A stretch of 29,741 bases of DNA from a virus. Within the stretch, counting starts at the first letter, position 1. Every line of letters starts with the position of its first letter. This document shows, piece after piece, positions 10,356 to 12,087 of this stretch. Below the pieces are notes generated by a model, which was not told the origin of the DNA, searched no databases, and saw only the letters and a list, made by a program, of their open reading frames with translations. Location of the stretch: the IMG/VR virus record IMGVR_UViG_3300035670_000980, positions 1-29,741 of that record. One strand, given 5' to 3'. The translations under genes were made by a program, and so were the position numbers.

Positions 10356-10379
10356 GACCCCCGGCTTAGGCCGGGGGTC
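10356..10379 (-). terminator. terminator after the repressor gene
   Basis: GACCCCCGGC (10356-10365) and GCCGGGGGTC (10370-10379) form a perfect 10-bp stem with a 4-nt loop. On the minus strand it is followed by ATTCTTTGT. It separates the repressor transcript from the early-operon control region. Confidence 0.8.
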
Positions 10380-10834
10380 TATTCGTAGTCAGCGTAAGTG
10401 ACAGGTCGTGGGCGAATGGGGATGCCCTTGGGCCGATCTCCCTTTTCGTCCGCTTCGACGTAAAAGAATCCGTAGTCCGGGTCGTAGGCCACGACCGCAT
10501 TGTTCGCCTTGATCTTGGCCAACCAGGAATCCAGGCGGCGGGCCTCATCCTCGCGCAGATCCTTGCCTGCCCTCCGACGCCCCAGGTCACGAAGCATCCT
10601 GGCTTGGTAGGCCATGGCGTGCTCAGCACGCACGGTCCAGGGGATCTCCTCATGGTAGCGGGGCAGGCTAGGGGAGATGCCCGCTCGGGCCAGGGCCACC
10701 GAGACGGTGGAAGACCCGACCTTCTCACCGGTCAAGTCATAGACTCGTTCGGTGATCGCTTTGATCGACAGTCCTTCATCGACCCGCCAACGCTTCAATG
10801 TCGCATTGTCGGGAAGTATCCGTCGAGCAGGCAT
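10379..10834 (-). CDS. HTH DNA-binding protein, probable immunity repressor
   Basis: A 151-residue protein. ATG 10834 has an ideal AAGGAGG 6 nt upstream; a longer frame adds nine residues that would span that site. Residues 12-51 form a helix-turn-helix block (LKRWRVDEGLSIKAITERVY, then SSTVSVALARAG). The following PWTVRAEHAMAYQARMLRDL and LDSWLAKI segments and the final DYGFFYVEAD are typical of proteins annotated as immunity repressors or HTH proteins in actinobacteriophages. It stands divergent to the integrase across attP and ends at a strong terminator. It most likely binds the repeats at 10144-10280, but that is inference. Confidence 0.75.
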   Translation of the reverse strand: MPARRILPDNATLKRWRVDEGLSIKAITERVYDLTGEKVGSSTVSVALARAGISPSLPRYHEEIPWTVRAEHAMAYQARMLRDLGRRRAGKDLREDEARRLDSWLAKIKANNAVVAYDPDYGFFYVEADEKGDRPKGIPIRPRPVTYADYE

Positions 10835-10860
10835 ATCTAACCTCCTTCCATACCCTTTCA

Positions 10861-10890
10861 ATCATCGGGTAGAGGTTTCGTAAATGTCAA
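10861..10890 (-). promoter_or_regulatory. candidate repressor promoter
   Basis: A perfect TTGACA on the minus strand (10890-10885) with GATGAT (10866-10861) after 18 nt gives a start about 20 nt before the repressor ATG, leaving room for its AAGGAGG. The -10 is imperfect. This promoter lies on the repressor side of the attP core, so it stays linked to the repressor in a lysogen. Confidence 0.45.
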
Positions 10891-10913
10891 GACGACCGGC
10901 CCAAGAAAGGGGG

Positions 10914-10951
10914 AAAAACGAAAACCCTGCAAAAAACCCCAGTAAAACCCC
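10914..10951. repeat. phased A-tracts beside the attP core
   Basis: Runs of A5, A4, A6 and A4 start at 10914, 10921, 10931 and 10944. AAAACCC(C) recurs at 10921, 10933 and 10944, about one helical turn apart. Such phasing predicts intrinsic curvature, and the repeat could be integrase arm-type sites. Confidence 0.5.
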
Positions 10952-10956
10952 ACGTC

Positions 10957-10980
10957 GTGTCCGAGGGGGGACTTGAACCC
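10957..10980 (-). other. attP: attP core containing the 3' part of a tRNA gene
   Basis: Read on the minus strand, 10980-10957 is GGGTTCAAGTCCCCCC then TCGGACAC: a T-arm with the invariant GGTTCAA loop, followed by a 3' acceptor strand (CTCGGAC), a discriminator A and one C. Identity to a tRNA stops there; CCA is not completed. No anticodon or D arm can be folded upstream, so this is not a tRNA gene. A partial tRNA 3' end next to a tyrosine integrase is the classical attP arrangement. The predicted target has a 5' acceptor strand GTCCGAG. A 7-bp inverted pair (CCACGTC 10950-10956, GACGTGG 11020-11026) flanks the region. Confidence 0.75.
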
Positions 10981-10990
10981 TTGTCATAAG

Positions 10991-11019
10991 TTGACAATCA
11001 ACCTAGTGAATCGTACATT
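10991..11019 (+). promoter_or_regulatory. integrase promoter
   Basis: Consensus TTGACA (10991-10996), 17-nt spacer, TACATT (11014-11019). The expected start near 11026 lies about 40 nt before the integrase ATG. TTGTCA at 10981-10986 and TGACAA at 10992-10997 form an inverted repeat overlapping the -35, a possible operator or integrase arm site that would let the integrase or repressor control this promoter. Confidence 0.65.
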
Positions 11020-11064
11020 GACGTGGTAGGTCATCATCACATTATCTAAACCCTTGGAGATGAC

Positions 11065-12087
11065 ATGCCTCAGAAAATCAGACTTATGGATGCAGTCAGA
11101 GAGTGGGAGGCCCACTCCCGCGCTCGGCGTCTAGCCGAGAACTCAATCAAGAATCGGATCCAACCGTTGAACCAGGCCTTTGATGTCTGGGGGAATATCT
11201 ACGTCTGCAACATTGAGCCCCGCCACATCGACGTTCTGTTCTCCCGGCACTCCTGGGCTGAGTCCACGACAAACCAGTACCTCGCCACGCTGCGCCAGTT
11301 CTTTACCTGGGCCAGAGCCCACAACTATCTGGGGAAGGACGACGACCCCACCGCTGGGTGGTACAACCTTCGAGTTCCCGTTCGGGAGAAGATGCGGATC
11401 CCCGTGGATATGTTCCCCACTCTCCTTGATGCTGCCCCGCACCCTGTGGACCGGATGGTGGTGGCCCTCGGCCTGTTCACCTTCATGAGGGGGAGTGAGA
11501 TCTCGACTCTTCGAGTGTCTGACCTGGAAAACCTGGACTCTAAGTTCCCCCTACTCCACATTGTCCGACATAAGACTAAAGAGGAGGATGCCCTCCCCGT
11601 TGTCCGGGAACTCCAGTTCGAGATCAAGCGGTTTTTCAGGTATTACACGAGCAAGGCGGGGATCCTTCAGCCGCATTGGTATCTCGTGCCCCGACCAAAG
11701 TCACTATTAGGTAACGCAAATGTCAAGCGTGAGGGCGTGGACCCAGGTGTCGATCCGCTGCGTCCCTACACCCACCCTTATCGAGCAGTCCAGCGAGCCT
11801 GGGGAGCCCTGGGTAACGAGACAAAGGGCATCGGTGTCCACGATCTGCGCCGATCCGGTGCTCGGGCCTACGCAGATACTCTCCGCTCCGAAGGCCACGA
11901 TGGGGCACTCCTACGGGTGGCTAGCATTTTGGGACACAAGGACGTAAAACAGACTCAGAAGTACATAGGATGGGGTCTGGAAAGAAAACAGCGAAACGAC
12001 ATGCTCGCTGGGAAGTTCATGTTCCCGCAGTTGCAGGGGGACGCGGTCGTCCTGGAGGTGCCACAAGAGCGGGTCTTAGGGGAGTGA
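11065..12087 (+). CDS. int: tyrosine site-specific integrase
   Basis: A 340-residue tyrosine recombinase. Residues 1-100 form a SAM-like core-binding domain (LAENSIKNRIQPLNQAFDVW, then NQYLATLRQFFTWARAHNYL). The catalytic set is R142 (FMRGSEISTLR), K170 (VRHKTKE), H259-x2-R262 (HDLRRSGARA), H291 (LGHKDV) and Y300 (QKYIGWG), in normal order and spacing. It would recombine attP with a host tRNA gene. A GGAGA site precedes the ATG. The adjacent attP, divergent repressor and the downstream coupled small zinc gene complete a lysogeny module. An excisionase is not obvious. Confidence 0.95.
   Translation: MPQKIRLMDAVREWEAHSRARRLAENSIKNRIQPLNQAFDVWGNIYVCNIEPRHIDVLFSRHSWAESTTNQYLATLRQFFTWARAHNYLGKDDDPTAGWYNLRVPVREKMRIPVDMFPTLLDAAPHPVDRMVVALGLFTFMRGSEISTLRVSDLENLDSKFPLLHIVRHKTKEEDALPVVRELQFEIKRFFRYYTSKAGILQPHWYLVPRPKSLLGNANVKREGVDPGVDPLRPYTHPYRAVQRAWGALGNETKGIGVHDLRRSGARAYADTLRSEGHDGALLRVASILGHKDVKQTQKYIGWGLERKQRNDMLAGKFMFPQLQGDAVVLEVPQERVLGE

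Follow-up and report, generated by a model that had tools for sequence, protein, structure and literature searches.

A tRNA-Leu(GAG)-derived attP core between divergent repressor and integrase genes in a putative temperate actinophage

Organization of the locus

The window, i.e. the whole stretch of DNA analysed, is a 29,741-base record of an uncultured virus, linear or of unstated topology, and is probably a fragment. The locus comprises a leftward gene for a predicted repressor and a rightward gene for a tyrosine integrase, separated by a copy of the 3' end of a tRNA gene and its two flanking arms. The features are as follows.

10356..10379, minus strand: intrinsic terminator at the repressor gene end (10-bp stem with 9 G-C pairs, about -25 kcal/mol)
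10379..10834, minus strand: putative repressor gene, 151 aa, with predicted N-terminal helices (HTH-like); PHROG 3929, E 2.8e-21
10835..10956, minus strand: P' arm on the repressor side, also holding the putative repressor promoter; delimited from the sequence
10841..10847, minus strand: strong predicted ribosome-binding site of the repressor gene, AAGGAGG; from the sequence
10861..10890, minus strand: promoter-like site of the repressor, TTGACA (10890-10885), 18 nt, GATGAT (10866-10861); 10 of 12 consensus matches
10950..10956, minus strand: GACGTGG, candidate arm-type motif adjoining the tRNA end (GACSTGS in relatives)
10957..10980, minus strand: attP common core, corresponding to the 3' end of tRNA-Leu(GAG) (T-arm, acceptor, A73, C74)
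10981..11064, plus strand: P arm on the integrase side; delimited from the sequence
10981-10997, in the P arm: TTGTCATAAGTTGACAA, a perfect palindrome; overlaps the -35 box of the putative integrase promoter
10991..11019, plus strand: promoter-like site of the integrase, TTGACA-17-TACATT; consensus scan
11020-11026, plus strand: GACGTGG in the P arm
11065..12087, plus strand: tyrosine integrase, 340 aa; PF00589, PHROG 1, invariant catalytic residues

The putative repressor gene and its promoter-like site

The match to the PHROG 3929 'transcriptional repressor' profile covers residues 1-133 of the predicted repressor. Its AlphaFold model contains helices at residues 10-19, 24-35, and 41-50, and comparison of this fold with the PDB returned nothing significant; the resemblances obtained were weak and HTH-like. 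Homologues occur in 172 records of Streptomyces phages, and the listed ones carry the annotation immunity repressor or transcriptional repressor; the putative function of the protein, including a role in superinfection immunity, is assigned from this homology and annotation. The gene starts with an ATG at 10832-10834 and is read from the same strand as the tRNA piece, at a distance of 123 nt; the co-orientation and spacing given in a first-pass annotation of this DNA are exact to the base. The gene is closed by the strong terminator at 10379-10356 and so looks like a self-contained unit. Elsewhere, one viral contig (L167) carries two genes of the repressor family, at 1233-1667 and 10846-11283, and distant homologues on 15 actinobacterial chromosomes from the class sample (L231-L245) lie roughly 100-220 nt from a tRNA-Pro(GGG) gene, on the opposite strand, where they are perhaps a fixed chromosomal copy.

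The scanned region contains three promoter-like sites, defined as consensus matches only, compared with 0.3 expected; one of them precedes the repressor gene and two the integrase gene. The repressor site proposed earlier, at 10861-10890, has a score reached by 1% of shuffles (p 0.01) and, as a promoter-like consensus match, is the sole site of its kind on the minus strand in the scan of 10800-11080. Averaged over 26 relatives, the highest promoter score within the 110 nt that precede the repressor gene is 6.96, against 6.19 (sd 0.11) in shuffles (0/200), while the integrase-side arms show no excess across the family. Promoter-like sites of the repressor thus appear to be enriched across the family, that is, conserved in kind. 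In the window this site lies on the phage side of the core, and therefore it is unaltered by integration.

The integrase and the arms of attP

The catalytic residues of the integrase, R..K..H-x-x-R..H..Y, are invariant in 18 homologues. A single-sequence search for its close relatives in viral contigs found none; the integrase search gave one weak phage match. The P' arms of the family are 104-285 nt long. Past the tRNA end, at offset 1-2 or 22 (two helical turns), the motif GACSTGS is seen in 11 of the 26 relatives (0.36 in shuffles). The arms have 47 8-mers in common, against 14 in shuffles, and the motif and the shared words suggest candidate arm-type integrase sites, as in other tyrosine integrase systems. 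The palindrome TTGTCATAAGTTGACAA, of which there is no other mismatch-free copy in the window, is a candidate operator; a search for operator words common to the arms and the early region gave nothing convincing.

The attP core and its counterpart in host genomes

The plus strand at 10958-10980, between the leftward gene (10379-10834) and the rightward gene (11065-12087), reads TGTCCGAGGGGGGACTTGAACCC. This sequence is present in the window in a single copy, and none of 100 shuffles yielded a match even with three mismatches allowed. It recurs exactly in at least 119 genome stretches, and at nearly all of those checked its complement is recognized by ARAGORN as part of tRNA-Leu(GAG). As base 10957 is common to all the stretches checked, the core is 24 bases long. 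The T-stem begins with A-A in the phage and with G-G in the hosts, hence the shared core starts at the third base of the stem. The window, itself only a fragment, contains no intact tRNA and gave no match to Rfam. Among the 50 viral stretches that contain the 23-mer, 49 have no intact tRNA at that place and in one it lies within an intact tRNA.

The same core lies between homologous repressor and integrase genes in 29 other uncultured viral contigs, and on this sequence evidence the segment 10957-10980 is an attP and not a chance resemblance. The first-pass annotation, which read it as a minus-strand T-arm/acceptor piece forming an attP between repressor and integrase and predicted an actinobacterial tRNA with a matching 3' end, is borne out on all these points. 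Identification of the 3' end of actinobacterial tRNA-Leu(GAG) as the corresponding attB is supported by the same matches. The host predicted from this tRNA is an actinobacterium carrying the matching tRNA-Leu(GAG).

Layout in related viruses

Tblastn recognizes the repressor, at 34-60% identity, as well as the integrase in each of the 29 contigs that contain the exact core. The repressor gene is invariably found beyond the 3' end of the tRNA and points the same way as the tRNA, and the divergent integrase gene occupies the opposite side. A scan with the repressor profile revealed further contigs with variant tRNA pieces at the equivalent position. The phage sequence flanking the core is the same in contigs L181 and L150, although their tRNA pieces are different; a core that follows the host tRNA would give this pattern. 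The eight extra bases CGACGTGG of several phages were considered as host flank and rejected, since L181 has the identical flank next to a different tRNA piece. A second class of core is not derived from a tRNA: in L211, L212, L221, and L223, which carry the same pair of repressor and integrase genes, the sequence GATGAAYTCAGCCAWYGG followed by TCTGACCTGC lies upstream of the repressor gene, and this core has one match in 395 genomes.

In the ten other elements with the same tRNA core that were compared, the integrases are unrelated and are encoded on the tRNA side in seven (L122, L132, L134, L135, L144, L151, and L170) and on the far side in three (L137, L153, and L161). The locus is an ordinary tRNA attachment module in an uncommon, conserved layout. 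Descent of a single integrase together with its site would account for the constant orientation of the tRNA piece, with no need for selection for read-through.

Predicted integration and the geometry of the lysogen

Junctions assembled in silico from the 5' parts of the tRNA of four hosts, the core, and the P' arm are recognized by ARAGORN as intact tRNA-Leu(GAG), in agreement with the earlier proposal that integration would regenerate the tRNA and place the co-oriented repressor gene directly downstream of it. The repressor profile was searched in 10 genomes, in 166 genomes of the G001/G002 order, and in 395 genomes of the class, and the integrase profile in the 395 class genomes and 396 genomes of the phylum; no lysogen of the module at tRNA-Leu(GAG) was found in these sets, nor, in the 10, 166, 395, and 396 genomes, the prophage with this repressor next to the matching tRNA for which the first-pass annotation had proposed a search.

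Three actinobacterial lysogens carry related modules whose integrases are distant relatives (145-244 bits) and which occupy sites other than tRNA genes. In G192 the repressor gene is found on the plus strand at 36.1 kb and the integrase gene on the minus strand at 85 kb of one contig; in G482 they are 41 kb apart in the mirror arrangement. The two genes, 41-49 kb apart, thus lie at opposite ends of these prophages, as the proposed geometry has it, while in G281 they are split over two contigs. Each pair of prophage ends has a direct repeat of 15, 16, or 18 bases in common, 15-16 bp in G192 and G482, located upstream of both genes as the geometry requires. The repeat in G192 interrupts a gene for a GH2 hydrolase, of which both parts are kept; they carry complementary GH2 domains, and the reading frame is continuous across the repeat. 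The repeat of G482 falls inside a pirin gene, whose 3' part is replaced by the phage; the prophage end (L288) carries a diverged pirin 3' end, apparently restoring the gene inserted into. The module is therefore not confined to tRNA genes. Next to the repressor gene of G281, host sequence appears to read in the opposite direction, so that the repressor and the host gene ahead of it need not always share an orientation.

Probable control of repressor expression

Taken as a whole, the locus probably serves a temperate actinophage for integration and for the control of immunity; the repressor would have its own promoter, and read-through would be at most additive. The attP core, copying the 3' end of the host tRNA-Leu(GAG) between the divergent integrase and repressor genes, would be recombined with the tRNA gene by the tyrosine integrase and, judging by the in silico junctions, would restore an intact tRNA. 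With the circle opened in this way, the tRNA would be followed directly by the repressor gene together with its entire P' arm, promoter, and ribosome-binding site, and the integrase gene would come to lie at the far end of the prophage. Transcription of the repressor would start mainly at its own P'-arm promoter both before and after integration, and read-through from the tRNA promoter, which is physically possible in the lysogen, would at most add to it. Any dependence of the repressor on insertion is probably small.

A larger contribution of the host promoter is unlikely, though it is the most probable of the alternatives. According to this reading, transcription from the tRNA-Leu promoter, no longer stopped by the tRNA's own terminator, runs across the P' arm and through the repressor gene as far as the repressor terminator; integration raises the dose of the repressor, and immunity does not require it. 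A strong intrinsic terminator is found within 100 nt of 55 of 114 host tRNA-Leu(GAG) genes (5% in shuffles) and would be displaced by integration, a strong replacement is supplied by only 4 of 30 phage P' arms, and the window has no strong intrinsic terminator between the tRNA piece and the repressor gene and has one right after that gene. An analogue is the integrase of ICEKp1, driven from a tRNA promoter (PMC13023037). On the other hand, four relatives (L121, L125, L162, and L216) do have a strong terminator between the tRNA and the repressor gene, the repressor has a promoter-like site of its own, and at the coding-gene sites of other relatives no tRNA is present. Just past the tRNA end, at 10909-10949 on the minus strand, the window carries GGGGTTTTACTGGGGTTTTTTGCAGGGTTTTCGTTTTTCCCCC, with three G3-4/T4-6 repeats and no strong hairpin; these repeats may slow or end transcription while escaping terminator scans.

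A more specific version, somewhat less likely still, is that in tRNA-Leu(GAG) lysogens the tRNA and the repressor gene are co-transcribed up to the repressor terminator, so that the dose of the otherwise unchanged protein both reports and reinforces the integrated state. This would be the promoter-side counterpart of integration-dependent immunity. No report of tRNA read-through into a phage repressor gene was found in the part of the literature covered.

It is highly improbable that immunity needs integration, with the repressor effectively expressed only behind the tRNA. The geometry alone favours this strong form. Against it, the promoter-like site and the ribosome-binding site, which are conserved in kind, are both found to the phage side of attP, and none of the features of known integration-dependent immunity that were tested (PMC9262239) was found here. 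Even the milder suggestion of the first-pass annotation, that immunity is partly integration-dependent, fits poorly with a promoter-like site and ribosome-binding site that occupy the stretch from attP to the gene and stay the same on integration, with related modules working at non-tRNA sites, and with the four relatives having a terminator ahead of the repressor gene. It is hardly credible that the tRNA piece is left over from an old insertion, or was captured from a host, and is not a working attP: this would agree with the lack of a module-bearing lysogen at tRNA-Leu(GAG) among the genomes searched, but not with an identical piece at an identical place in many divergent contigs, with variants of the piece between the same phage arms (L181 and L150), or with the conserved arm motif GACSTGS.

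With a repressor expressed mainly from its own promoter as the preferred reading, the layout itself means that in many uncultured actinophages it is the lysogeny repressor, and not the integrase, that would sit directly behind a host tRNA gene. If read-through does supply repressor, promoter capture would tie immunity to the state of integration. Even otherwise, the module supplies a link to the hosts, actinobacteria with the matching tRNA-Leu(GAG), and the phages that have or lack a terminator ahead of the repressor gene form a testable set.

Comparison with known systems

The module resembles tRNA-targeting tyrosine integrase modules, such as that of mycobacteriophage Omega at tRNA-Leu-CAA (PMC3706429, PMC10865867), in having a tyrosine integrase, an attP core that matches the 3' end of a tRNA exactly, and a regenerated tRNA (in the window, in silico). 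It differs in the use of tRNA-Leu(GAG) and in that the repressor gene is the first gene past the regenerated tRNA. The Streptomyces phages Daudau and phiHau3 have homologous PHROG 3929 repressors (about 37-41% identity), also encoded near genes for an exonuclease and a DnaB-like helicase, but in Daudau no integrase is annotated beside the repressor gene.

Integration-dependent immunity of mycobacteriophages of clusters G, N, and P relies on attP located within the repressor gene, a repressor-integrase operon, and degradation tags (PMC9262239). The clustering of repressor, attP, and integrase and the attB at a tRNA gene are common to both. In the window, however, the attP core lies outside the repressor gene, 123 nt upstream of its ATG, the repressor and integrase genes are divergent and share no operon, the C termini TYADYE and RVLGE bear no ssrA-like (-LAA-type) tags, and integration leaves the repressor protein unaltered. 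The module also differs from tRNA-dependent lysogeny, in which a short core breaks the host tRNA and the phage encodes a replacement, as its core restores the tRNA in silico and the window, a fragment, holds no tRNA gene.

In the KplE1 intS module, attL overlaps the integrase promoter, which is repressed through integrase binding (PMC2951348); an attL overlapping a phage promoter that adjoins a tRNA is a shared trait, whereas the promoter overlapped there belongs to the integrase. A parallel in placement is offered by the state-dependent promoter switching of ICEKp1, ICEclc, and ICEEc1, for which displacement of the tRNA terminator and transcription into the adjacent integrase gene are documented (PMC13023037). 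In both cases a co-oriented gene of the element lies directly downstream of the host tRNA and the host terminator is displaced, a placement which for the window is deduced from attP and uninfected hosts. In the ICEs this gene encodes the integrase, its own upstream segment is weakly active, and co-transcripts have been measured, while in the window it encodes a putative repressor with a promoter-like site of its own.
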